In this document: positions 1,183 to 16,824 of the stretch, one piece after another
Layout of the letters: each line of letters starts with the position of its first letter
How positions within the stretch are numbered: position 1 is the first letter of the stretch
Source of the DNA: an uncultured Chlorobiaceae bacterium
GTDB lineage: Bacteria > Bacteroidota > Chlorobiia > Chlorobiales > Chlorobiaceae
DNA length: 64,000 nucleotides
NCBI GenBank assembly: GCA_903882665.1
Contig: CAIRXW010000042.1
Span: 1-64,000 of the forward strand
Reading direction: 5' to 3'
Notes under the pieces: model-generated
Databases searched by the model: none
Seen by the model: only the letters and a program-made list of their open reading frames with translations
What the model was told of the DNA's origin: nothing
Made by a program: the position numbers and the translations under genes

Positions 1183-2742
1183 ATGGCCTGGCTCGACGAA
1201 CTCAAACTCAATGTTGACGCGCGGGTAGCCGTCATACACCTGGCAACCATCGACGAAGAGGAGGCCCTGCGCACGCTTTCCGGCTGGTCGCAATCAAGCG
1301 AGTGGCCTGAAGGAATGGGGCTCATCACCTGGGATATCGGCGACCAGTTTCGCCACCTGCGCGAGCCAGCAGCGACCTTCAGCAAGCTGGCGGCCACCCC
1401 TGAAACCGTCCTCGACATCATTGACGACTACAAGGGCTCCGCAACATTCGTGCTCAAAGACTTTCACCATTTCTGGGAACATAACCGCAAGGTTTCGCGC
1501 ACGCTGCGGAACCTCGCATCGCGTCTTCCTTTCCGCAGCGAAACGGTGAACATCATCATCACCAGCCCCCAGTTTGCGCTTCCCGTCGAACTCCGTCACG
1601 ACATTCCAACCATTGATGTCGGCAAGCCCGACGGCAAGCAGATACTCGAACTGCTCGATCGGGAAACCCGCTCGACGCGGGCGCTCGACAACGCCACGCA
1701 TGGCTTGCGCGAACGTCTGGTCGAAAGCGCGCTCGGCCTTTCCATCGTCGAAGCGGGAAGGGCGTTTCGCAAAGCCATTGTGGTTGCCGGAGGCCATGGG
1801 CTCGACGAACGGAGTGTCCGGCAGGTGCTGAACGAAAAACGGCATATCATCCGTGAAAGCGGCGCTCTTGAACTCTACCCCTATACCGGATCCATGAACA
1901 ACGTTGGCGGACTTGGGGCCCTGAAGGGGTGGCTCGACGAGCGCCAGGAGGCCTTCAGCCAGGATGCACGCGAGTATGGCCTCAGTATGCCCAAAGGGGT
2001 GGCACTCATCGGGATTCCCGGAACCGGAAAAAGCCTTTGTGCAAAAGTAACCGCAGGCCACTGGGGGATGACGCTGCTGAGAATGGATGTCGGCGCTATC
2101 TTCAGCGGCCTGCTCGGTTCGAGCGAACAGAATATTCGCGAAGCGATCCGTATTGCCGAAGTTATCGCTCCCTGTGTGCTCTGGGTTGACGAGATCGAAA
2201 AAGCCTTTGCCGGCTCTATGGGCGACAGCGGCACAGCGAGTCGGGTCTTTGCCACCTTTCTTACCTGGATGCAGGAAAAAACCGCTCCGGTATTCGTCTT
2301 CGCCACGGCCAACAATGTCCGGCGGCTTCCCCCTGAACTCCTGCGCAAAGGTCGGTTTGATGAGGTCTTTTTCCTCGATCTTCCCACCCACGGCGAGCGG
2401 ATAAAGATACTTGAAGTCCATCTCAGGGAGCGCGGCTATACCATGCTCTCGCAACGGTTCAACCTTGGCGCCGTCGCATCGGCAACCGAGGGGTTTGTCG
2501 GCGCCGAACTGCAGGCGCTGGTCAACGACGCCATGTTTCCCGCATTCCGCGACAACCGCCGGGAGCTGGAAACGGAGGATCTGCTCAACGCAGCCGGAGA
2601 GATGGTTCCCCTTTCCGCATCGCATCAGGAGCATATCGAGCAGTTGAGAATGATGGTCGGAAACGGACAGGCGCGCAACGCCTCCGACGACCGGAATGCT
2701 TTGTCAGCCTCATTGAAAACCGGAGATAACAGCGCCCCATGA
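1183..2742 (+). CDS. Ycf46-like AAA+ ATPase
   Basis: A 519-aa cytoplasmic ATPase. The N-terminal ~230 residues resemble the degenerate ATPase half of the Ycf46/AAA family ('VAVIHLATIDEEEALRTL' at the start). The C-terminal half is a classical AAA module: Walker A 'GIPGTGKS' near residue 280, Walker B 'VLWVDEIEKAF' near 330, sensor/arginine-finger region 'LRKGRFDEVFFLDLP' near 395, and a helical lid. Members of this family are protein-remodelling ATPases; the substrate is unknown. It lies between an Hsp70-like gene and an FGE-fold gene and overlaps the latter by 4 bp (ATGA), so translational coupling is likely. The ATG was chosen because it follows the Hsp70 stop closely and starts the conserved N-terminus. 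Confidence 0.85.
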   Translation: MAWLDELKLNVDARVAVIHLATIDEEEALRTLSGWSQSSEWPEGMGLITWDIGDQFRHLREPAATFSKLAATPETVLDIIDDYKGSATFVLKDFHHFWEHNRKVSRTLRNLASRLPFRSETVNIIITSPQFALPVELRHDIPTIDVGKPDGKQILELLDRETRSTRALDNATHGLRERLVESALGLSIVEAGRAFRKAIVVAGGHGLDERSVRQVLNEKRHIIRESGALELYPYTGSMNNVGGLGALKGWLDERQEAFSQDAREYGLSMPKGVALIGIPGTGKSLCAKVTAGHWGMTLLRMDVGAIFSGLLGSSEQNIREAIRIAEVIAPCVLWVDEIEKAFAGSMGDSGTASRVFATFLTWMQEKTAPVFVFATANNVRRLPPELLRKGRFDEVFFLDLPTHGERIKILEVHLRERGYTMLSQRFNLGAVASATEGFVGAELQALVNDAMFPAFRDNRRELETEDLLNAAGEMVPLSASHQEHIEQLRMMVGNGQARNASDDRNALSASLKTGDNSAP

Positions 2743-3536
2743 ATACACCAACATATAACGAAATCCTTACGGAACTGAGAAGACTCGCGCTTTGTCCATC
2801 CGGCGCCGAGCTGCCTCCGGTTGTCGTCAACGAACAGGATGGCTCCCCGATGGTGCTTGTTCCCGCAGGCAGTTTCACCATGGGAGACGACCTCGATAAG
2901 GAGAGTTCGCAGCGCACCGTCACTCTCGATGCGTTTTATATTTCGGTTTATGCCGTTACCAATCGACAGTACCGGGCTTTTGTGCAGGCAACGGGCCATC
3001 GGCCTCCCAACATTGGCGCAAGGATAGACTCGCTTTCGGTTTGGCACGAAGATGGCTGTCCTGCAGAGTTCGACGATTATCCGGTCGTGCTCATCAACTG
3101 GGACGATGCGGAAGCCTACGCCCGGTGGGGGGGATGCCGTTTGCCCACAGAAGCCGAGTGGGAAAAGGCTGCACGCGGTACGGAAGGACATATCTACCCA
3201 TGGGGAGATCGGTGGGATGAAAACAACTGCCGAAACAGGAACAACCGGGGTGCGGACTCGGTCGCTCCGGTGTACGCCTATCCCGAAGGGGTTTCGGGTT
3301 ATGGTACCTGGAACCAGAGCGGCAATGTTATGGAGTGGTGTTCTGTCTGGCGCGACGAAACGGATTCCGCAAACACCGCCTCCGGTGAAGAATCGCTCCG
3401 CCAGGAACGCGGCGGCTGCTGGCGTTACCCCGATAAGTTCGCTTTTCGTTGTTCGCAGCGTTCGTTTGTGGTTTCCAAAGCGGTTAACGATTTCCGGGGT
3501 TTTCGGCTGGTGTTGCCTGTGGAGGCGGGGGAGTGA
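2739..3536 (+). CDS. FGE/SUMF1-fold protein lacking the FGE catalytic cysteines
   Basis: A 265-aa protein with the formylglycine-generating-enzyme (C-type-lectin-like) fold: 'MVLVPAGSFTMGDD' near residue 38, 'YPVVLINWDDAEAYARW', 'RLPTEAEWEKAARG', 'YPWGD', and a C-terminal 'FRGFRLVLP'. In true FGEs two cysteines lie about 10 and 5 residues before the 'YRC' cysteine. Here the equivalent stretch 'GGCWRYPDKFAFRC' has W and K at those places, by eye alignment. It is therefore probably a binding or effector protein using the fold rather than a sulfatase activator. There is no signal peptide. It overlaps the upstream AAA+ gene by 4 bp, which argues that the two function together. Such domains also occur as diversified ligand-binding proteins in bacterial conflict systems. 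Confidence 0.8.
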   Translation: MNTPTYNEILTELRRLALCPSGAELPPVVVNEQDGSPMVLVPAGSFTMGDDLDKESSQRTVTLDAFYISVYAVTNRQYRAFVQATGHRPPNIGARIDSLSVWHEDGCPAEFDDYPVVLINWDDAEAYARWGGCRLPTEAEWEKAARGTEGHIYPWGDRWDENNCRNRNNRGADSVAPVYAYPEGVSGYGTWNQSGNVMEWCSVWRDETDSANTASGEESLRQERGGCWRYPDKFAFRCSQRSFVVSKAVNDFRGFRLVLPVEAGE

Positions 3537-3732: not shown

Positions 3733-4203
3733 TTATTCGTAAATAAAGCCAACTTTTCTGAGCGCGATAATAGATGCGGCCATGAACAACAATGCCTCAT
3801 ACCGTTCGTTAAGCTTTTCAAACCTCACCAGAATTTTTCTGAAGCGATTGAACCATGAGTGAGATACTTCTACAATCCATCGACGAGCCTTGTAATTCGG
3901 ATTATCTTTTTTCTCCTGGAACTCTTCGTTAAGTTTTTTTACATGAGGAATATACCGTTCCGAATGAATAATCAGATAGGCAGGCTTTCCTTGGTATCCT
4001 TTATCAGCACAAAGATGTTGTTCGCTTTCTGGACGTTTAACCACAATATTTTCAAGCACTGCTTTCAGTTGAGTGACATCGTGCCGGTTTGCTCCGGTTA
4101 CGACTATCGAGAGCGGGACCCCACGCCCGTCTACCAGTATATGGCGTTTTGTGCCATTTTTTTCCCCTGTCCGTAGGATTTCGTCCAACAGTTTCCTCTG
4201 CAA
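3733..4203 (-). CDS. IS5-family transposase, C-terminal frame (orfB)
   Basis: This frame carries the C-terminal catalytic core: 'KRHILVDGRGVPLSIVVTGANRHDV' region (second DDE aspartate area), 'CADKGYQG', and the 'RRWIVEVSHSWFNRFRKILVRFE' segment with the terminal DDE glutamate, ending 'IIALRKVGF'. Its similarity to transposases begins at the A7 run shared with orfA, so its own ATG is probably not used. The protein is likely made as an orfA-orfB fusion by slippage at A7, as described for several IS5 subgroups, unless the shift is an inactivating indel. The stop codon overlaps the left inverted repeat. Confidence 0.85.
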   Translation of the reverse strand: MQRKLLDEILRTGEKNGTKRHILVDGRGVPLSIVVTGANRHDVTQLKAVLENIVVKRPESEQHLCADKGYQGKPAYLIIHSERYIPHVKKLNEEFQEKKDNPNYKARRWIVEVSHSWFNRFRKILVRFEKLNERYEALLFMAASIIALRKVGFIYE

Positions 4204-4567
4204 GTGGAGCTTTTGTCATAGCGCCATCTATGCTTTGCCAGTTCCATGCGATTCCTTCCATATCATCATATTCTGCCAGTCCCTTCTGCCAAAGTGCAAG
4301 AAAAAAACCTTTACGCTGCCATCGTGCAAAATGCGTATAAATTGAACTGGGACTGCCAAACCGCTCTTTTGGCAAGGCTTGCCACTGACAACCAGTTCGC
4401 AGGACAAACATAATCCCTTCAAAGATGGTTCTTGATTGGATTGGTTTGCGTCCTCCTCCAGACTTTCGTTTATACGCTTTATTTGGATCTCGCTCAGGTG
4501 GAGGTATCAGTGGCTCAACCACATTCCAGAAAGAATCAGATACTTCCCATGATTTTATTTTTGGCAT
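4052..4567 (-). CDS. IS5-family transposase, N-terminal frame (orfA)
   Basis: This 171-aa frame holds the N-terminal part of an IS5-type transposase: 'SFWNVVEPLIPPPERDPN', then 'RTIFEGIMFVLRTGCQWQALP' and 'SIYTHFARW', ending with the first DDE aspartate region 'SIDGAMTKAP'. ATG at 4567 is preferred because GGGAGA lies just upstream. An in-frame ATG at 4579 is also possible. Past an A7 run (minus strand, 4157-4163) this frame loses similarity and ends in unrelated sequence. A complete transposase therefore needs a shift into the orfB frame. Confidence 0.85.
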   Translation of the reverse strand: MPKIKSWEVSDSFWNVVEPLIPPPERDPNKAYKRKSGGGRKPIQSRTIFEGIMFVLRTGCQWQALPKERFGSPSSIYTHFARWQRKGFFLALWQKGLAEYDDMEGIAWNWQSIDGAMTKAPLAEETVGRNPTDRGKKWHKTPYTGRRAWGPALDSRNRSKPARCHSTESSA

Positions 4568-4707
4568 AATTTCTCCCAAGGTAATGAGTTACTTTTGAGA
4601 GAAATATAATACTTCGCTGCTATATGTGAAAATTATTTACGAATAAGATCTAAATATGCGATGCTGTATTGAAAGGGTTCTTTTTCGTTGGAAGGAGTTG
4701 TAAAACT

Positions 4708-5250
4708 ATGATTCAGACCAGCAAAATAAATCACCAGGGCGAGGATAGGCTGAAACTTGTGTTTGCCTATAATGACTTCATTATAAATAAGATAAGGCAC
4801 ATTGAAGGTGCTGTCTGGAGCAAGACACTCAGAGCATGGCATATCCCGTTCACCGAGGAAGCTTTTGGCGAATTTAAGAAGCTATTTCCGGATATAGTCG
4901 TACCAGATCCTGCAGGTTCAGCAAACATGTCAGGTACCGAAGAGCTAACGGAAGCTACCAATGAACCACCGGTGCCAGCACCTTCGGTAAAGGCGCAATC
5001 TGAAGTGAAAACTGCGACAAAAGCAGATCTGCAAAATGTTACGCAACACAACGGAATCGCTATCGAAATATCCCCGAAACAAATTACCGTTACAATGCCT
5101 AAGAATGAGACGGATATACAGTTCATCCGTACCTTCAATTATGTGAGGTGGAACAGCAATAAATTTTGCTGGACTATACCCAACTACGGCAAAAATATCG
5201 ACTTGTTAAAAAATTACTTTGGTCAGCGTATCACGCGGTATAGCCAATAA
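4708..5250 (+). CDS. protein with two W-x6-W-x-I-P repeats, resembling integrase N-terminal domains
   Basis: A 180-aa protein with two copies of a ~50-residue module separated by a low-complexity E/T/A/P/K linker. Copy 1 is around 'RLKLVFAYN ... VWSKTLRAWHIPFTEEAF' (residues ~10-60) and copy 2 around 'ITVTMPKN ... RWNSNKFCWTIPNY' (residues ~125-178). Modules of this kind, as I remember them, form the N-terminal extension of many tyrosine recombinases of Bacteroidetes and Chlorobi; no catalytic recombinase domain follows here. ATG 4708 is chosen because GAAGGAG lies 10 bp upstream; an upstream in-frame start at 4669 has no ribosome-binding site. The stop codon falls inside the left arm of the first attC-like site, as is usual for a cassette gene. 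It could be a decapitated integrase or a stand-alone cassette protein. Confidence 0.6.
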   Translation: MIQTSKINHQGEDRLKLVFAYNDFIINKIRHIEGAVWSKTLRAWHIPFTEEAFGEFKKLFPDIVVPDPAGSANMSGTEELTEATNEPPVPAPSVKAQSEVKTATKADLQNVTQHNGIAIEISPKQITVTMPKNETDIQFIRTFNYVRWNSNKFCWTIPNYGKNIDLLKNYFGQRITRYSQ

Positions 5251-5356
5251 GGGTTTCAATGGTATGCGAAGTTCATCACCCGCATCAATCTTTCGTCTCG
5301 GTTGATAGGAACGTCGCTTCGCAATCCCTTACTGGCCATACCGCAAAACGTTGTGT
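5224..5356 (+). other. attC-like recombination site A
   Basis: Inverted arms GCGGTATAGCCAATAAGGG (5235-5253) and CCCTTACTGGCCATACCGC (5326-5344) pair over 19 positions. The two top-strand mismatches are both A opposite C, which become T-G wobbles if the bottom strand folds. A second inner pair, TGCGAAG/CTTCGCA, extends the hairpin. The right end reads AACGTTGTGTGC, that is the core AAC-GTT at 5347-5352. This is the architecture of integron attC sites, whose folded bottom strand is the substrate of IntI. Confidence 0.7.
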
Positions 5357-5518
5357 GCAATTTTGCCCTAACTAGGAGAGACGGGCTTTTAGCTAACGAT
5401 TTCTTAGAAAAATGGGAAATTAAGTGTGATTTAAAAGTTTTATAAATAATTGATTGATATCACTTTTAAAAATATGTTAGTCTTATATATATTCTAACTC
5501 TAACTTAAAATTAATATT

Positions 5519-7714
5519 ATGAATACAACTACTGAATTAATCAAGATATTTGAAGATATCACTAGTAAGCTACTGGAAAGTACCGAACCTAACACTTTAT
5601 ATAATGCTGTTGTTCAAATTGCAATGCAAAACACTGATGCACAAGCATGTTCACTATATTTAGAGGCTACAAATGAATTGGCTAGTAAAGAACCACATGT
5701 TATTATTATGGTTGCTGGTGCAGGATATGAAAAGTATCGGATAGGAGCAAAATACACAAAGGGACAAGGGCTTACAGGAAGTATTTGGGAGCAAAGTGAA
5801 AGTGTAAAATTTGACACGCAAAAAGATTTAGAAAATCTGAAGGGATCATGGAAAGGATTACATAATGATACGCTAAAGGAAAAAGTTCCGAATTGGAAAT
5901 GTTTTTCACTCATTGGTGTACCACTTAGAATTGGTGAAAAAACAATTGGTGTTTTAAAAGTGGAAAACAAAAATCCTGGTTCTCCAGAACATTTCTCTTT
6001 ACAAGATCAGGCAACTCTTGAAATTATTGCAAGTACTATTGCAATGGCTATAGAAAATCAAAGACTCACAGAGCAAACTTATAGTGCGATTTTATATGCG
6101 TTAAGGGATGTTTCTGAGATGTTAGTTGGAAAACAAACCATGTCAATCCCAAATTTTTGCGATCGTGTTGTTTATAAATGTATTGAAGTATTCAATTCTC
6201 AAGCATGTTCAATATACCTTGAGCCTTATGAAAAAAATAGAGAAGACGAATATATAGAAATGATCTCTGGATCTGGATACGAAAAACATAGAAAAGGTGC
6301 AAAATATAACAAAGGAGAAGGATTAACTGGAAGCATTTGGTTAAATAGTGAATCGGTGAAATATGATACACAGGAAGATGTTGAAAATACTAAAGGTTCA
6401 TGGAAAGGAAAATACAATGAAGATATTACTAAGAATGATCCGAACCGGATATGTTCATCGCTGATTGGAGTACCATTAAGAATTGGAGATCATACAATTG
6501 GAGTGCTTAAGGTTGAAAATAAAAAACCTTCACCACAATCACACTTTAATCATAATGAATTAAGAAGTTTGGAAATATTAGCTTCAAATATTGCATTATC
6601 AATAGAAATGCAAAGAAATTATGAATCTAAATTTATGGAAGGTGAGCGTGCAAGGGATTTTACTCATAGCTTAAGAAACAAAATAAATACTGCAATTGTG
6701 AACATAAGAGATGCAAAATCTAGTATTAAGAAAGCTGACAAACAAAATGATCTATATATTGTTAATGAATGCTTGGATATTGTTGATTCAACACTTTCAG
6801 AAATCAGTGAGTACCAAAAAGGTGCACTATCCGATACGGAAGGAAATAAATCAAATATCTCTATTTTAGAGTTAATAAAAGATTTAAGTAATAAATTTAA
6901 CCAATTATTTAATGAAAAGGATGTAGAATTTATTATCAATCAACCTAAGGAGGATCGAATACTTTACATTAATAAACAACAAATATTAGAAGGATTAGGT
7001 AATATAATTGGGAATGCAATTGATGCATTAACCACTATTGAAAGCCCAAAATTATGGCTTGAAGTAAATATTGCATCTAAACATGGTAGTGAGCAGGTTA
7101 TTATTAAAATTACGGATAATGGTATTGGTTTAACTGAAGCACAGAAAAAAGAGTTTGCAAATAATAAAATTATAACATCCACAAAAAGGTTTGCATTAGG
7201 ATCTGGAATAGCGAGGGCAAACCGATGTTTTGCTGATAATGCAGCCCATTTTGAATTTATAGATCCCCCAGTTGAAAAAACATCAAATGGAGCTTCATTT
7301 ATAATTACGTTTTCTGCATATATGCCTCAAGATTTGAGAATTCTGATAATAGATGATGAACAAGCAACACTCGATACATTTAAAAGAAAGGTTAAAGAAA
7401 AAAATAATTTAATTGGTGAGTTTCGCAATAATCTTGAAATTCTTCAAAATGAACTTGATAAGGAGTTAAAAGATCAAAAAGCATATATTCGATCGTTTGA
7501 TTACATATTACTAGATTGTCATTTTAATAACTCAGCAGTTGATGGTATTGATATCTATAAAAGATTTATTGAATTTGATCTAGAAATAGCTAAAAAAATA
7601 ATTCTAATGTCTGGACAGAATAGTTTTTTAATTCGAAAAGATGTTAAAATAAAAGATAAATACACTGATATTTTGAATGATTTTTCAATATTTATTTCCA
7701 ATTTAAGTCATTAA
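5519..7714 (+). CDS. GAF-GAF-histidine kinase-receiver hybrid sensor
   Basis: A 731-aa soluble sensor. Two duplicated GAF domains (about 10-185 and 190-365) share motifs such as 'AKYTKGQGLTGSIW' / 'AKYNKGEGLTGSIW' and 'SLIGVPLRIGEKTIGVLKVENK'. A dimerisation helix with a candidate phospho-histidine ('FTHSLRNKI', about residue 380) is followed by a HATPase domain: N-box-like 'GLGNIIGNAIDAL' and G-box 'ITDNGIGL'. The C-terminus is a receiver-like domain ('ILIIDDEQ' near 607, candidate aspartate in 'YILLDCHF' near 665). No signal peptide or membrane segment is seen. It is strongly AT-rich compared with the flanking core genes. It lies 15 bp before a receiver-HD gene in the same cassette, and the two probably form one signalling pathway. 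Confidence 0.85.
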   Translation: MNTTTELIKIFEDITSKLLESTEPNTLYNAVVQIAMQNTDAQACSLYLEATNELASKEPHVIIMVAGAGYEKYRIGAKYTKGQGLTGSIWEQSESVKFDTQKDLENLKGSWKGLHNDTLKEKVPNWKCFSLIGVPLRIGEKTIGVLKVENKNPGSPEHFSLQDQATLEIIASTIAMAIENQRLTEQTYSAILYALRDVSEMLVGKQTMSIPNFCDRVVYKCIEVFNSQACSIYLEPYEKNREDEYIEMISGSGYEKHRKGAKYNKGEGLTGSIWLNSESVKYDTQEDVENTKGSWKGKYNEDITKNDPNRICSSLIGVPLRIGDHTIGVLKVENKKPSPQSHFNHNELRSLEILASNIALSIEMQRNYESKFMEGERARDFTHSLRNKINTAIVNIRDAKSSIKKADKQNDLYIVNECLDIVDSTLSEISEYQKGALSDTEGNKSNISILELIKDLSNKFNQLFNEKDVEFIINQPKEDRILYINKQQILEGLGNIIGNAIDALTTIESPKLWLEVNIASKHGSEQVIIKITDNGIGLTEAQKKEFANNKIITSTKRFALGSGIARANRCFADNAAHFEFIDPPVEKTSNGASFIITFSAYMPQDLRILIIDDEQATLDTFKRKVKEKNNLIGEFRNNLEILQNELDKELKDQKAYIRSFDYILLDCHFNNSAVDGIDIYKRFIEFDLEIAKKIILMSGQNSFLIRKDVKIKDKYTDILNDFSIFISNLSH

Positions 7715-7729
7715 AAGTGTAGCGATAAT

Positions 7730-9349
7730 ATGAATATTCTAATAGTCGACGATCAAAAAAAAGATTATATTAAATTATCAGACAGGTTGCAAATCGATAA
7801 TCCATGTTTTAATATAGATTATGCGAAAAATGCCATTGAAGGCATTCAAATACTTGAAAAAAAAGAGTTTGATATTTTAGTTCTAGACCAGAAAATGGGT
7901 GGTCCAAATATGGATGGAACTGACCTCCTAAGAAAAATTAGAGAGAAAAATATTCGAAAAGTACCTGAAATTATTTTTGTAACAGCCAATTATAATCTGA
8001 TCCCTGCTGAAACTATTGTTGCTGAGAATGTTTCAATTACTCTATTTATTGAAAAGGATACCTCGTTTTTAGATACCTTATATAGAGGTATTATGCTTAT
8101 TGTTAAGCGCATGAGAGGGGGGGCAAAGTATCAGCCTAAGGATTTGTTCGGGAATCAATTTAATAATTTGATTCTCGAAGAAGCTAATAAATTGTTAACA
8201 AATGATATACCCGGATATTATTCTCCACTTCAACGAAGTCAAATAGGTACTATGATCAGATCTTATATAAGCAGTTTGAAGATGAGATCTGAATGGGATG
8301 AAGATGATGTATTAGAACTTTCAATATTTTTTGCTGAGGGATTATGTAAAATATTTAAAATACCTGAAGAGCTAATTGACATATTAAAACGATTTTTAAA
8401 TGTTGAAGAAATATTATATACAATACCTCATTATAGAGATCATTTTTTCCACCAAATAAAAGTATTCTTCCTTGGTTTTTGTTTAATCAACGAATTAAAC
8501 AGAAATAGGCTATTAGCTGGTCATATTCTTGAAACCAATATTGGTATTAAAACTTGGTTTATTACATCGGTTTTTCATGATATTGGCTATCCGTTTGAGA
8601 AAATGAAGTTATGGCTAAATTCATTTATTATGGGGGTGTTAAAATCTCCGGTTGAATGTACCAACGAAACTGATATTATTCCTCTTGAGTTTCATTGGGG
8701 TGCCTTGTTTGGGAAAAAATATCATTGGTATCATTTACAAAAGATAATAGAGGTGATATGTCAAACTTATGATAAAGAAAAACCAACATATTTTGCCGAA
8801 TTAATCAGTGATGTTGCTTCATTTGTATCTGAAACACCTGATCATGGAGTTTATAGTTCTTTAATACTACTGAACTTTTTACGAGAAAGATTATCTGAAA
8901 AAGAAATTGATTCAATCTCAGTTGCAGTAGCATTACACAATGATAATATTTCTAAGCTAGTGAGACAAATATTGAATGAACCACTTAGTTTTGAAAAAGA
9001 CCCATTATCTTTTCTATTAGCATATTGCGATATAGCACAGGATTGGGGTAGAGTTAAACCTACTATTGATAAATCTAAAGGGTATAGCAAATTTGGTTTT
9101 CCTTCTTTTGCAAGTGATAAAATTTTTGATTTTGAAAATAAAGTGGTGAATATTAATTTATGTTATAATAATTACATGACAGTACCTGAACAAAAGGAAT
9201 GGTATAATACTATTTTTAGTAAGCACATTCAACCCATGACGAACTATTGGTCATCAAGGAGAACTCTATTACCCAAAATTGATTTTTCTATAACATACTA
9301 TCACCAAGATATTAGAATAGAAAATATCCTTAATAGGTTAAATATTTAA
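7730..9349 (+). CDS. response regulator with HD-type phosphohydrolase-like C-terminus
   Basis: The first ~130 of 539 residues are a receiver domain: 'ILIVDDQ' at the start, phospho-acceptor Asp53 in 'ILVLDQKM', and 'IIFVTANY'. The C-terminal part has HD-superfamily features: a histidine in 'HYRDHFFHQ' (~235), the HD doublet in 'SVFHDIGYPFEK' (~281) and a late aspartate in 'LAYCDIAQDWGR' (~432). By family knowledge HD proteins are metal-dependent hydrolases of nucleotides or phosphoesters, so an output acting on a nucleotide messenger or nucleic acid is plausible but not shown. It is 15 bp downstream of the hybrid kinase, which is the likely phosphodonor. The next recombination site starts 21 bp after its stop, so both genes share one cassette. 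Confidence 0.75.
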   Translation: MNILIVDDQKKDYIKLSDRLQIDNPCFNIDYAKNAIEGIQILEKKEFDILVLDQKMGGPNMDGTDLLRKIREKNIRKVPEIIFVTANYNLIPAETIVAENVSITLFIEKDTSFLDTLYRGIMLIVKRMRGGAKYQPKDLFGNQFNNLILEEANKLLTNDIPGYYSPLQRSQIGTMIRSYISSLKMRSEWDEDDVLELSIFFAEGLCKIFKIPEELIDILKRFLNVEEILYTIPHYRDHFFHQIKVFFLGFCLINELNRNRLLAGHILETNIGIKTWFITSVFHDIGYPFEKMKLWLNSFIMGVLKSPVECTNETDIIPLEFHWGALFGKKYHWYHLQKIIEVICQTYDKEKPTYFAELISDVASFVSETPDHGVYSSLILLNFLRERLSEKEIDSISVAVALHNDNISKLVRQILNEPLSFEKDPLSFLLAYCDIAQDWGRVKPTIDKSKGYSKFGFPSFASDKIFDFENKVVNINLCYNNYMTVPEQKEWYNTIFSKHIQPMTNYWSSRRTLLPKIDFSITYYHQDIRIENILNRLNI

Positions 9350-9370
9350 AATAATGTTAGAATAAAAAAA

Positions 9371-9502
9371 GCACACAACAATATATAAAAATAATAGCCG
9401 ATTCATTAGTAATTTCAAGGGTTATAGTCCGCTTGAACTTTCATGTAACTTGATAGAGTTGTAGCCCGCAATCGGCTACTATTCTTATACAAAACGTTAG
9501 GC
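9371..9502 (+). other. attC-like recombination site B
   Basis: It opens with GCACACAAC (9371-9379), the exact reverse complement of GTTGTGTGC that starts this cassette at 5350-5358. The arms tataaaaataatagccgatt (9384-9403) and aatcggctactattcttata (9470-9489) pair over 20 positions; the two mismatches become T-G wobbles on the bottom strand. It closes with AACGTTAGGC (9493-9502), where GTTAGGC fits the classic GTTRRRY core. Confidence 0.75.
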
Positions 9503-9581
9503 TGCATTCTAAAACACTGGAACATAGACGAAAGATTCAGAAAAATGTTGTTAATTTGTAGTTGATTTAAAATCTGAAAAT

Positions 9582-9803
9582 ATGTTTATCACAATCGAAA
9601 TTGACCGAGCCAAACTAACCATAATGGGAGTGAAATTTTTAGACTTGAAAACATTAGAAAGTACAGCAAATGCTTTGGGAAGTAATATGTTTGAAGGTTT
9701 TAACCCAACCCCGAAAGGAAATGAAATAATCAGAGACTATGTCGCTGGGAAAATTTCAATGAGTGAATTGGTGATATTAGCTAAAGAAAAAGCGTATGTC
9801 TAA
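9582..9803 (+). CDS. VbhA-like Fic antitoxin
   Basis: A 73-aa protein directly upstream of, and overlapping by 8 bp, a Fic gene. It contains 'SNMFEG', which matches the (S/T)xxxE(G/N) inhibitory motif of class I Fic antitoxins. In VbhA the motif glutamate blocks ATP binding in the partner's active site. The C-terminal helix 'GKISMSELVILAKEKAYV' is also typical for these proteins. Together they form a toxin-antitoxin pair acting in the cytoplasm. A later in-frame ATG at 9624 would give a more usual VbhA length, and no clear ribosome-binding site decides between the two. Confidence 0.8.
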   Translation: MFITIEIDRAKLTIMGVKFLDLKTLESTANALGSNMFEGFNPTPKGNEIIRDYVAGKISMSELVILAKEKAYV

Positions 9804-10329
9804 TTCTTATAAATACATTGACCCTGACTACACCTATACTGACCCAAAGACAGGACTACTAAGAAATATTCAAAATATTACAGACCCTGATGTATTATTG
9901 TTTGTTGAGAGCGTTGCTGTTACTAAACGACTACAAGAACTTTATGAAAATCCGATAAAGATTAAGGGAATTGAAAGTCTTTTTGAAATTCACAAACAAC
10001 TATTTCAAGACATATACGCTTGGGCTGGAAAAAAACGGATTGTTGAAATTAGCAAAGACAGAAAACAATTTTTTCCAACTACACATTTTGACAATGCTTA
10101 CAGATACGTTGAAACTTTAATAACTGAATTCAAGAAAATTCCAAAGAACAACAAAAAGCATTTAGCGGAGAAGTTAGCAGAAATTTTGGACAATGTAAAT
10201 TATTTACACCCCTTTAGAGAAGGAAACGGGCGAACGCAAAGGGAGTTTGTAAGAGTGTTAGCGTTAGAAAAGGTTTTGACTTTAAACCTTAACCCCCCCA
10301 CAATTAAAGTGTTTACGAAAGATATATGA
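9796..10329 (+). CDS. Fic-family AMP-transferase toxin, 3' end frameshifted
   Basis: The 177-aa product has the full Fic motif 'HPFREGNGRTQREF' near residues 138-151 and the upstream 'HKQLFQDIYAWAGKKR' segment that precedes it in the family. It should transfer AMP to a target protein unless held by the antitoxin. After 'RVLALEK' the sequence departs from the usual 'LNPPDNKSVYERYMKG' ending. A neighbouring frame reads 'SVYERYMKGTIESEVAILTELIFELIETNI' (to the stop at 10398-10400), interrupted by a C7 run and a TAA. The C-terminal ~40 residues have thus been lost by an indel at the homopolymer plus a substitution. Activity of the truncated toxin is uncertain because the core motif is intact. Confidence 0.8.
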   Translation: MSNSYKYIDPDYTYTDPKTGLLRNIQNITDPDVLLFVESVAVTKRLQELYENPIKIKGIESLFEIHKQLFQDIYAWAGKKRIVEISKDRKQFFPTTHFDNAYRYVETLITEFKKIPKNNKKHLAEKLAEILDNVNYLHPFREGNGRTQREFVRVLALEKVLTLNLNPPTIKVFTKDI

Positions 10330-10410
10330 AAGGGACTATTGAAAGTGAAGTAGCAATATTAACAGAGTTGATTTTTGAATTAATTGAAACCAATATCTAA
10401 AAATAAGAAC

Positions 10411-10557
10411 GGTGCATAACAAACGCTATTGCAGGTGCTATAGCAAATGCGGGCTTGCGTGTTCGTTGAAACATTTGAAATCTTAACTTACATTTTTGCT
10501 TGCAGACAGTTGAGCAACAATTTATTCCCGCGCTTGCCATAGAGTCAGCCGTTAGCG
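10411..10557 (+). other. attC-like recombination site C
   Basis: The left end GGTGCATAAC (10411-10420) matches 6 of the last 7 bases of the reverse complement of the cassette start GTTAGGC. The arms ctatagcaaatgcggg (10438-10453) and cccgcgcttgccatag (10527-10542) pair at 13 of 16 positions, plus two bottom-strand T-G wobbles. The right core is GCCGTTAGCGGTC, with GTT at 10551. It follows the degraded Fic tail by about 10 bp. Confidence 0.65.
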
Positions 10558-10600
10558 GTCATTTTAAGACGACTACATACTACAAGACATAAAAACAAAA

Positions 10601-11203
10601 ATGGCGACAGGTTTATATTTAATTACAAACTCAAAATTGACAGGAAAGGAAACTCAAAAGGATTGGGAGAGAATTGTTGGTAAATTAGACCAACTAAAAA
10701 TGGACACAACTTCATATGTCAACGCACAGAACGAAATTGTCAAAGAATACGGGAGTTGGAGTTATGACATTGAACACGAAGAAGAAGACCTTACATTTAA
10801 TGTTGACTTAGTTGGGCCTTTCCATATTCAACCAAGACTGTATTCAAACATCGGTGTAATCTACACAATATACAAATACACACTTCTATATGAAATTTAC
10901 GGTTGTGATTGGTTTGGATCTTTTAGAAAAAACCTGTATAACATTGTGAAAATTATTGGAGGAACAGAAGTAATTTATTTGGCTGACAATGCTTGCGATA
11001 AACTTTCAACCTACTTGGAATGTATGGCGTGGGAAAATGTTCCATACGAAGACATAAAAGAGAAAATGCTGCAAGAGTTTGGACAGCCATTAACAGACTA
11101 CTCAAAACTAAATTATAACACATTAACATATGCTAAAATAGACGAGTTTTTCTTGGACGACTTTAATGACTTAAAAATGAAGGATACAAAAATGAACTGC
11201 TAA
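10601..11203 (+). CDS. cassette-encoded protein of unknown function
   Basis: A 200-aa AT-rich protein rich in acidic and aromatic residues, with no signal peptide or membrane segment. I do not recognise the family. Visible features are an N-terminal 'GLYLITNSKLTGKETQKDWERIV', a central 'WSYDIEHEEEDLTFNVDLVGPFHI' and an acidic C-terminus. It is the only gene between two attC-like sites, and its TAA stop lies inside the R''-like sequence AACTGCTAAC of the next site, which is typical of a single-gene integron cassette. Integron cassettes often encode orphan proteins, so the context gives no function. Confidence 0.7.
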   Translation: MATGLYLITNSKLTGKETQKDWERIVGKLDQLKMDTTSYVNAQNEIVKEYGSWSYDIEHEEEDLTFNVDLVGPFHIQPRLYSNIGVIYTIYKYTLLYEIYGCDWFGSFRKNLYNIVKIIGGTEVIYLADNACDKLSTYLECMAWENVPYEDIKEKMLQEFGQPLTDYSKLNYNTLTYAKIDEFFLDDFNDLKMKDTKMNC

Positions 11204-11291
11204 CACGGGTTTTGCCTCAGGTGGGGTGACGTGCAAACTTTGAGCTGTTTGGGACGAGCAAAATGCCAAGTGGTGGTTTTCTGTGTTGGAT
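11195..11291 (+). other. attC-like recombination site D (more degenerate)
   Basis: The left end AACTGCTAAC (11195-11204) matches the reverse complement of the cassette start GTTAGCGGTC at 8 of 10 positions, and both differences are transitions. AACAC at 11202-11206 pairs with GTGTT near 11283-11287, and TTTTGC pairs with GCAAAA inside, with an asymmetric bulge. The right end GTTGGAT (11285-11291) fits GTTRRRY exactly. Confidence 0.55.
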
Positions 11292-11862: not shown

Positions 11863-13161
11863 ATGATAATTAACTTCAGTATACAAAACTTTGGGTCAAT
11901 CAAGGACAAACAAACATTGACCTTTGAAGCTGACAAATCAGAGCATCTTGAAAATAGCTATGTTATTAATACAAATGGATTGCGGCTTTTAAAGATAATC
12001 CTGATCTACGGTGCCAATGCCTCAGGAAAAACTACTATTCTTAAAGCACTTGAGTTTCTAAGGGATATTGTTCTTGAGCCAGAAACAAAAAAAACTGATG
12101 AGCTGGATTTTCAGCCATTTTTATTTGATTCTGAAACACCTGAACAAAATTCGATAATTAGTATTGAGTTCTTGGCAAATGATACTAAATATTATTATGA
12201 AGTGGAGTTTTTCAAAAAAGCTATAGTTAATGAGGTTCTAAATTTTTACAATCCAAATAAAGCGAATGTATTTAAGCGAAATACAGACATAAATAATCAG
12301 TTCGCCGTAATCAAGTTTGGGAGTAAGATTAAAATTGATAAGACCATTGAAAAAAACTTAGAAGCAAATACACTTTGGAATAATACTGTATTGGGTGGAT
12401 TTTTAAAAACCAATGTTGACATCAAAGAACTTAAAGTAGCCGTCGAATGGTTTAAAAACTATTTACGTCCTTTGATTTACACAAGAACACAATTAGAAGG
12501 ATTCGTTACTTCAAAGATTGAAAAAAGTGAGTTGTCAAAATTAGATGTAATAAACGTACTGAAGAAAGCTGATTTCCATATTTCGGACATAGTAATTCAG
12601 GAAGAAGAAAAAGAAATACCTGATGGACTCATTGATTTCTTAAAGGGTCAACTTAAGGATTCTTTTGATGAGATAAAAAAACTGGAAGAAAAGGGGAAAG
12701 TAACATCGGTGAATATCGAGTTTGAACACACCGTTAATCAAACGAAGTATACGCTACCTATTGAAATGGAATCACAAGGAACCAGAAGGTTTTATGGTTT
12801 TGCGGGATTACTGGCACTCTTAATTAAAAATTCGACTGCTTTTACTATTGATGAATTAGAATCATCACTACATCCCGACCTTTATATGCATTTTATACTT
12901 TCATTCTTGCTGAATACAGATAAGTCTCAACTTATTGCTACTACTCATAACAGAGAAATTCTTGACAATAAAGATGTTTTTAGAAGCGATGCGATTTGGT
13001 TTACAGATAAAAATGAAAATTGCTCAACAGAATTATATTCCTTAGCTGATTTCGATAGTTCGATAGTAAGAAATACAACAAACATTTTAAACGCCTATAA
13101 AAGTGGAAGATTAAAGGCAACGCCGAATTTAGGTGATAATTTCATTGATTTGAAGATATGA
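11863..13161 (+). CDS. AbiLi/RloA-like AAA ATPase, abortive infection
   Basis: A 432-aa SMC/ABC-type ATPase of the AAA_15/AAA_21 class: 'NFSIQNFGSIKD' at the N-terminus, Walker A 'GANASGKT' at 50-57, a signature-like 'MESQGTRRFYGFAGLLALL', Walker B 'AFTIDELESSLHP' near 326, and a switch histidine in 'LIATTHNREILD' near 358. Families of this form pair with RloB proteins. Here an RloB-like gene follows with a 4-bp ATGA overlap, as in the lactococcal AbiL system (AbiLi-AbiLii). The expected role is NTP-driven sensing of phage infection in the cytoplasm. It is AT-rich and carries a Bacteroidetes-type promoter, so it was probably acquired horizontally. Confidence 0.8.
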   Translation: MIINFSIQNFGSIKDKQTLTFEADKSEHLENSYVINTNGLRLLKIILIYGANASGKTTILKALEFLRDIVLEPETKKTDELDFQPFLFDSETPEQNSIISIEFLANDTKYYYEVEFFKKAIVNEVLNFYNPNKANVFKRNTDINNQFAVIKFGSKIKIDKTIEKNLEANTLWNNTVLGGFLKTNVDIKELKVAVEWFKNYLRPLIYTRTQLEGFVTSKIEKSELSKLDVINVLKKADFHISDIVIQEEEKEIPDGLIDFLKGQLKDSFDEIKKLEEKGKVTSVNIEFEHTVNQTKYTLPIEMESQGTRRFYGFAGLLALLIKNSTAFTIDELESSLHPDLYMHFILSFLLNTDKSQLIATTHNREILDNKDVFRSDAIWFTDKNENCSTELYSLADFDSSIVRNTTNILNAYKSGRLKATPNLGDNFIDLKI

Positions 13162-13796
13162 GAAAATCAAGGAAGATTATAAGTCAGGTTGCTCCCGCAT
13201 TTGTATTTGTTGTAGATGGAGAGACTGAGATTTGGTATTTGCAGATGCTGAAGCGCAATGAACGACAATTAAGATTAAACATTGAGCCTAAGATACCCCA
13301 AAAGAAAAGTATTGAAGAGCAATTCAAATTAGTTGTAGATTTATCGGAACGTGAATATTTGAAAGTCTTTTGGCTTATTGATTTAGATACAATTATCAAA
13401 GAATCAAGAGAAACTCCTAAAGGGAAGAAAACATCACTACAGGTTTTAATAGAATTCAGAAAAACTATTAAACGAGAATACAAAAACATCATTTTTATTA
13501 TTAATAATCCTTGCCTGGAGTTTTGGTTCATACTGCACTTTGAAAAAACCTCCAAACTTTTCGACACTTGCGCTAAAGCAGAAACTGAGCTTAAAAAGTA
13601 TCTTAAGGATTACGAGAAGACTCGAAAATATTTTACAAAACAAGACAATGATATCTATATAAAACTGAAGCAATTTTTAAAAACTGCCATTAATAATTCA
13701 GAAAGTTTGGGACAGTTTGATGTGGATGAACAAACAAAAGCAATTTGTGAAATGCACTTACTATTTCAAACTGACGAATTTAAGAAAATATTATGA
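13158..13796 (+). CDS. AbiLii/RloB-like protein
   Basis: A 212-aa RloB-family protein. Key stretches are 'FVFVVDGETEIWYLQML' near residue 15, with the conserved E of 'DGETE', 'VFWLIDLDTI' near 72, and 'NNPCLEFWFILHFEKT' near 118. These acidic and hydrophobic strands suggest a TOPRIM-like metal-binding nuclease core, which is the usual interpretation of the family. It overlaps the AbiLi-like ATPase by 4 bp and would be its effector. The 160 bp that follow, up to the next gene, hold no convincing gene. Confidence 0.78.
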   Translation: MRKSRKIISQVAPAFVFVVDGETEIWYLQMLKRNERQLRLNIEPKIPQKKSIEEQFKLVVDLSEREYLKVFWLIDLDTIIKESRETPKGKKTSLQVLIEFRKTIKREYKNIIFIINNPCLEFWFILHFEKTSKLFDTCAKAETELKKYLKDYEKTRKYFTKQDNDIYIKLKQFLKTAINNSESLGQFDVDEQTKAICEMHLLFQTDEFKKIL

Positions 13797-16309: not shown

Positions 16310-16545
16310 GGCCACTGTTCTTTCGTCGTAGCTGGTGCCGGTTTAAAAGCCGGAGAATAGGGAATTACGTGAAAATCGTAAACTGTACCCGCAACTGTAC
16401 AACGGTTAACCCCCAAAAGCCATGCATGGCCTCATGCAGAATTTTTTGGCGGTCGTTTCAGGTCACTGCACTCTTTTCCTCCCAGGAAAACTGCGGGAAG
16501 GCCCGAAGCGGAATGAAGCCGTTATAGTCAGGAGACCTGCCAGTT
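16310..16545 (+). promoter_or_regulatory. cobalamin riboswitch
   Basis: Conserved elements occur in the right order: GGTGCC near 16334, AATAGGGAA then GTGAAAATC near 16355-16376, CCCGCAACTGT near 16388, and the B12 box AGTCAGGAGACCTGCC at 16526-16541. The spacing fits the adenosylcobalamin-binding class with a long variable arm. It lies about 280 bp before the start of a BtuB-like receptor gene and should repress it when cobalamin is plentiful. The stretch 16546-16824 shows no other feature I can support. Confidence 0.92.
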
Positions 16546-16824
16546 ATTATTTGCATTACAAGATCGGACTACGGGTTATAGTCGGGGCAAAGCTGTACCA
16601 CTTTTGCATTGCTTTCCATTTGATCTTTTTGCACGATATTTTTGCTTGCTATTGCAGAGTTTCCCGAAACATCAGGGCATCAGCACCTGTTTCGTTTCTC
16701 TGTTTTCCTTGTGAAATCCTGTTGTAAAAAAATCACCAGCACTGTTTTAATGCCGTTACACACCGCCTTTAGATAGCCCCTGTCAGTTGATGTATTTCTA
16801 AAACTGAAAACAGGTGAAAAACAA

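Follow-up and report, generated by a model that had tools for sequence, protein, structure and literature searches.

The question raised by this locus is whether the two-gene segment lying between two imperfect palindromes is an integron-type gene cassette and, if so, on which enzyme its array depends. The analysed window, 64,000 nucleotides of contig C42 in a 2.8-Mb, 57-contig assembly, carries part of a real cassette array as judged from its sequence. Each cassette begins at G|TT and closes with an imperfect palindrome of about 130 bp (attC). The sites were scored with R1, a covariance model trained on 22 sites of the family; these training sites had been picked by an AAC/GTT stem finder, and the model is to some extent predisposed to strict AAC/GTT ends. 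R1 detects four sites in the window's genome (A, B and C, and one on contig C47), and an Rfam search of the window sites returned no family. The features of the locus are as follows.

2739-3536, plus strand: gene with an FGE-sulfatase domain (Pfam PF03781, E 3e-49)
3733-4579, minus strand: IS transposase fragments (PF01609, E 4.5e-20, and ORFs), between the FGE-sulfatase gene and the recombinase
4708-5241, plus strand: 5' part of a recombinase gene interrupted at site A, about 178 codons that cover only the N-terminal repeats
5232-5356, plus strand: attC site A (R1 match 5226-5356, 87.5 bits), without an outer R'' box
5351-9496, plus strand: cassette 1, about 4.1 kb, from the base following G|TT through the G that precedes the next TT, ends matching 9/9, attC on both sides
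5519-7714, plus strand: cassette 1 gene of 731 aa, two GAF domains and a histidine-kinase-type ATPase domain (Pfam)
7730-9349, plus strand: cassette 1 gene of 539 aa, receiver domain (PF00072) and a C-terminal HD-type motif (read by eye)
9371-9502, plus strand: attC site B, complete, R'' GCACACAAC and R' GTTAGGC (R1 match 9373-9502, 106 bits)
9496-10551, plus strand: cassette 2, with a Fic-domain gene at 9796-10329
10411-10557, plus strand: attC site C (R1 match 10426-10557, 86.8 bits), with an extra stretch duplicated in the left arm
10551-11205, plus strand: cassette 3, with a 200-aa ORF at 10601-11203
11197-11225, plus strand: left arm of a broken fourth attC, TGCTAACACGGGTTTTGCC.., read from the sequence
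11863-13796, plus strand: AbiLi/AbiLii-like defence pair (PADLOC, AbiLi E 5e-75, AbiLii E 2e-16), just outside the array

The first-pass annotation of this DNA had described the ends of cassette 1 as exactly complementary over nine bases, and they are: GTTGTGTGC (5350-5358) and GCACACAAC (9371-9379) are exact reverse complements, neither 9-mer recurs elsewhere in the window, and with six free bases the chance of such a match is 1/4096. The arms of site A (GCGGTATAGCCAATAAGGG / CCCTTACTGGCCATACCGC) and site B (TATAAAAATAATAGCCGATT / AATCGGCTACTATTCTTATA) also differ as had been reported, all four mismatches, two per site, having A on the left and C on the right. The added claim that this shared direction would not arise by chance was too strong, since four mismatches in one window could agree by chance; they constitute weak evidence because transitions in a perfect palindrome share their direction about one time in eight. 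The proposed comparison of both strands came out in favour of the bottom strand at A, B and the third site C, with DNA folding energies (bottom against top) of -27.6 and -22.5 kcal/mol at A, -15.4 and -12.5 kcal/mol at B, and -15.6 and -14.0 kcal/mol at C. The ends of the other two cassettes match their own partners at 6/9 (cassette 2) and 8/9 (cassette 3) positions, not 9/9, and the fourth attC, at about 11197, gave no match to R1. Cassette 1, with 4.1 kb and two genes at 5519-9349, is unusually large for a cassette. Its REC-HD gene has no close relative in the family, the best match reaching 36% over part of the gene; a relative is located downstream of the array in genome G079, and no attC was found behind it.

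Both A and B had been taken as cassette sites. This holds for B, which is complete and was also recovered by a finder that scores Watson-Crick matches only and is blind to the type of mismatch (39 candidate sites in 396 kb, none in the shuffle). Site A is truncated. Its left end is fused to the truncated recombinase gene at about 5231-5234 (..GCGTAT|CACGCGG..), where in the G001 copy ACGCGG is preceded by an R'' box, GCATGCAAC. In the window, recombinase coding sequence stands to the left of A; it continues differently on contig C57, and the truncated frame stays open to 5250. This frame encodes the N-terminal part of a tyrosine recombinase that has 484 aa when intact; the window fragment is 93% identical to the intact protein over residues 1-178, and an 89% identical copy on C57 is open up to the contig end. 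Comparison of these copies indicates that site A is a truncated attC, the outer box of which was lost in the fusion to the broken recombinase gene. Integrase cleavage at R'' was considered for this junction and set aside, since, with two bases of microhomology, an ordinary deletion would leave an indistinguishable junction. An FGE-sulfatase-type gene also precedes the intact recombinase in G083 and G084, where a similar 265-aa ORF lies upstream (L142 and L143).

Cassette 2 has homologues in four other genomes (G073, G079, G080 and G068), with breakpoints at G|TT where these were read. It starts at the same G|TTAGGCTGC in G073, G079 and G080, behind three other left neighbours, and its right end, also G|TT, stands before two neighbours, TTAGCGG in the window and G080 and TTAAGTG in G073 and G079. 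The copy in G068 is 77% identical, and cassette 3 adjoins cassette 2 also in G080. This is the distribution expected of a mobile cassette. The exchange of cassettes as units at G|TT, which characterizes classical integrons, is seen for the Fic cassette and also for blaVEB, described below. A short ORF from about 9582, overlapping the 5' end of the Fic gene and read by eye, may encode an antitoxin of Fic. The attC behind the Fic cassette has a left arm with a varying count of 12-bp tandem repeats (no extra repeat in G080, one in G079 and the window, three in G073), which push R'' away from the stem (window 10411-10557; L050:10705-10848; L052:8651-8818; L051:529-660).

R1 sites are present in 40 of the 86 family genomes. 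Their stems differ between sites and their loops are conserved. In related arrays, all 96 counted sites lie on the same strand as the recombinase, and the end rule is obeyed at 9/9 in 46 of 57 consecutive sites, against a shuffled mean of 1.5. The pair at position 15 after AAC is A.C in 64/69 unique Chlorobiaceae stems, and of 116 Chlorobiaceae sites 88 have their better fold on the bottom strand (p 2e-8). The same was found in an independent set of 89 sites from other Bacteroidota, collected without R1, with the direction of the recombinase gene setting their orientation: 15 nt into the site, A.C makes up 69/84 pairs and C.A none, A.C outnumbers C.A by 114 to 4 overall, and folding is better on the bottom strand in 68 sites and on the top strand in 20 (88 non-tied; sign p 3e-7). 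Another mismatch that recurs, T.G at position 6 (34 sites), points to the top strand instead; it opposes A.C, and the mismatches are therefore fixed landmarks and not a general bias. The bottom-strand signal noted earlier is retained in the form of the landmark A.C at 15, and the general bias is not. Like those of classical integrons, the sites have R'' and R' boxes (R'' missing from site A), an imperfect palindrome and a better hairpin on the bottom strand. The controls were shuffles, IntI loci and positional expectation only; loci L239-L258, with distant recombinases, were tried as negative controls and dropped, many of them also holding arrays. The array at L249 (G221), behind an insert-less recombinase, has stems of 11-12 bp with no mismatch and the same AAC/GTT end logic, and its sites are perhaps another attC type.

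The recombinase whose gene is broken in the window is intact in many relatives. Its homologues head attC arrays on their own strand, the first attC usually following at 0.7-3.5 kb, and the closest relatives in named genomes belong to Chlorobiaceae MAGs, so that the window probably comes from a green sulfur bacterium. Behind the recombinase, three Chlorobiaceae loci agree in sequence as far as ATAAAGGAG or ATAGATAAAGGAG and part at G|TT. Their first cassettes open with TTATGGGC, TTGGTGGC or TTGTGTGC, and the attC sites of these cassettes end GCCCATAAC, GCCACCAAC or GCACACAAC. An attI-like ..TATAAAYRA|GTT was read at more than 20 loci in many Bacteroidota families, mostly 80-104 bp behind the recombinase stop codon. 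The relatives have in this way an attI-like site beside the recombinase gene, as classical integrons have attI beside the integrase gene, and in the window this part is deleted. A recombinase match at E 1e-50 or better occurs in 119 of 394 genomes of the phylum. Of the 20 loci most similar in sequence the majority contain R1 sites, as do many of a further 20 that are more distant, and in a Bacteroidales MAG two sites follow a recombinase of 53% identity. In 16 Bacteroidota genomes with 122 sites, 47 were located downstream on the same strand, within 35 kb of the listed recombinases, 8 upstream on the opposite strand and 0 in the other two position/strand classes (expected 0.8 each), while 67 were away from any recombinase among the matches listed. 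Most Bacteroidota genomes searched hold 5-24 attC matches, many of them in arrays behind a recombinase, which is not the Xer/dif arrangement of a single dif site per chromosome used in dimer resolution.

The array recombinase has N-terminal repeats and a catalytic domain in which R, K, H, R, H and Y are invariant. In enzymes of the array type 89-94 aa separate Arg I from HxxR, against 131 in six IntI and 95-98 in two Xer proteins; the IntI insert of about 40 residues is missing from the array recombinase. The IntI profile TIGR02249 gives it 199 bits in two stretches, below the cut-off of 265, and an IntI-type integrase with the additional domain, expected beside the array of a classical integron, is absent there. 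In a structure predicted with AlphaFold from 37 sequences (pLDDT 81), the fold resembles IntI4 (2a3v) with Z 22.6 and 2.8 A over 270 of 317 residues, and the top match is XerA (Z 23.0). In the tree, six Chlorobi IntI fall inside the array recombinases on a long branch with moderate support (93/91, 85/72, 88/83), and this moderately supported placement is treated as a lead. According to PMC9668308 and PMC8138268, the insert defines IntI and is necessary to it.

These features are probably best explained by an integron-like array run by an insert-less tyrosine recombinase of the Xer/IntI type. The main alternative is an ordinary integron array of the CALIN kind, moved in trans by the IntI encoded on contig C13, with the linked recombinase as a bystander or degenerate relative. 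The window does have the composition of a CALIN (at least two attC and no IntI nearby), with A, B and C on C42 and the IntI on C13, and its own recombinase gene is broken. True IntI is present in 22 of the 86 family genomes, the window's included, where the C13 protein is full-length and scores 480 bits with TIGR02249. Moreover, the attC of veb1, which is of the window type, has been reported functional with IntI1 at low efficiency (PMC3518468), and IntI could use window-type sites in trans. Gene linkage speaks against this alternative and leaves it unlikely. An attC lies within 10 kb of the recombinase at 21 of 29 gene places and within 10 kb of a true IntI at 1 of 25; across the family genomes, attC presence tracks the recombinase (20/22 vs 20/64, Fisher p 9e-7) more than IntI (p 0.05); and many arrays in other families lie directly behind an intact recombinase, with the attI-like site at constant distance. 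By position, window-type attC is linked to a tyrosine recombinase other than canonical IntI. The integron-type cassette of the first-pass annotation is upheld by the end rule, the bottom-strand folding and A.C at 15, and its assignment of IntI as the linked enzyme is not. The C13 locus (G000:C13:1545-2576, L011) is In0-like, and no attC of the window type was found in the surrounding 12 kb. As the enzyme linked to the window array this IntI was rejected, no linkage being found, though it may act in trans. The IntI relatives in the 22 genomes are nearly all unlinked to window-type attC.

A cassette of clinical integrons carries a site of the same family. The 133-bp veb1 attC is recognised by R1 (E 8e-14) and conforms to the 9/9 end rule, and the veb1 cassette is so far known as a class 1 integron cassette; the attC of other cassettes in the blaVEB loci gave no R1 match up to E 10. 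Behind ..GGATATTAGGGA (L261, L265) the cassette of blaVEB, a beta-lactamase gene, starts at GTTAGCGGT, and it begins at the same base behind attI1 ..CTAAAACAAA (L263, L264). The first two loci (L261:4753-5765, L265) have a truncated Bacteroidota-type recombinase and an attI-like site, and the other two (L263:3002-4078, L264) are class 1. The blaVEB copy behind the Bacteroidota-type recombinase and attI-like site suggests a source for the cassette. A Chryseobacterium plasmid carries the recombinase with five R1 sites, and truncated recombinase copies immediately precede tet(X3) in Acinetobacter and blaVEB-3 in Klebsiella.

The palindromes might instead be a dispersed repeat of the MITE or REP kind, copied by another enzyme and not serving recombination. 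Similar loops between sites and the occurrence of single sites on their own agree with such a repeat, but the breakpoints fall at G|TT inside the site and not at the repeat ends, the 9-nt ends match the other end of their own cassette, the stems vary while the loops are conserved, and a cassette of class 1 integrons has one of these sites as its attC, which makes this explanation very improbable. That the hairpins work at the RNA level, for instance as intergenic terminators, is still harder to credit, for although they are intergenic and palindromic, folding is better on the strand complementary to the genes, and the end rule and G|TT junctions would be meaningless for a terminator.

For the preferred reading, an integron-like array with an insert-less recombinase, array anatomy, junctions, end rule, cassette reuse, linkage, the absent insert and the shared blaVEB cassette are read from DNA, and we infer catalysis by the recombinase, the strand choice and the role of the mismatch. 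The bottom strand of attC would fold to a hairpin, as in the integron, and the tyrosine recombinase would cut at the outer R box, releasing the cassette as a circle, which would be inserted at the attI-like site 80-104 bp behind the recombinase gene. The fixed A.C at 15, which is T.G on the bottom strand, may set the polarity of the hairpin and may take the role that extrahelical bases have in classical attC. The window array appears to have lost its own enzyme, a deletion having probably joined attC A to the first part of the recombinase gene; the recombinase copy on C57 or the unlinked IntI on C13 could then act in trans.

Classical integrons share with these loci the G|TT cassette bounds, outer boxes of the RYYYAAC/GTTRRRY type, arrays of different genes, an imperfect palindrome with the better bottom strand and an attI-like site beside a tyrosine recombinase gene. 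They differ in that the recombinase here is without the IntI insert and below the integron-integrase cut-off, that the sites have stem arms of equal length, a fixed A.C pair and an attC of about 130 bp, and that the order is usually recombinase and then array on one strand. With Xer (XerA, XerC, XerD, XerH) the recombinase shares the catalytic fold and the lack of an insert, whereas many members here have N-terminal repeats and serve, by location, tandem cassette arrays and not a single dif site. The integron-like tyrosine recombinase subgroup of PMC8138268 has a plasmid member named by NCBI 'site-specific tyrosine recombinase/integron integrase'; in the cited portions of that paper the insert is called essential for integron function, and insert-less members are not linked to attC arrays.

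A broader proposal is put forward tentatively, as somewhat short of an even chance: a second integron type may be widespread in Bacteroidota and Chlorobiota, with an insert-less recombinase folding and recombining single-stranded attC, IntI would have arisen within this group, and cassettes including blaVEB would have passed to class 1. Integrons are defined by IntI and its extra domain, and this domain is held to be needed for the use of attC. If insert-less recombinases run arrays throughout Bacteroidota, the IntI domain is not required for a cassette system, IntI-based searches miss a large cassette pool, the origin of IntI becomes open to comparative study, and a source is indicated for clinically important cassettes (blaVEB, and tet(X3) behind a truncated relative). 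The open-access literature searched, with preprints and subscription papers outside its scope, contained no description of insert-less recombinases heading attC arrays, and their novelty is provisional.

Some further observations were made at other loci and beside the array. In Acinetobacter, tet(X3) lies behind a truncated recombinase relative (L259:4004-6140, L262) and is followed by the apparent left half of an attC (GCTACTAACAAGCAGTTTTGCAATAGTGGGGC). GTTATGTGC was tried as the start of a tet(X3) cassette and rejected for want of a matching end, so that tet(X3) is an association only. The AbiLi/AbiLii-like pair has a 94% identical copy near a recombinase in G085 (L063) and near an array in G083 (L055). 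A cobalamin riboswitch is located at 16316-16558 of the window (Rfam RF00174, 82.9 bits).
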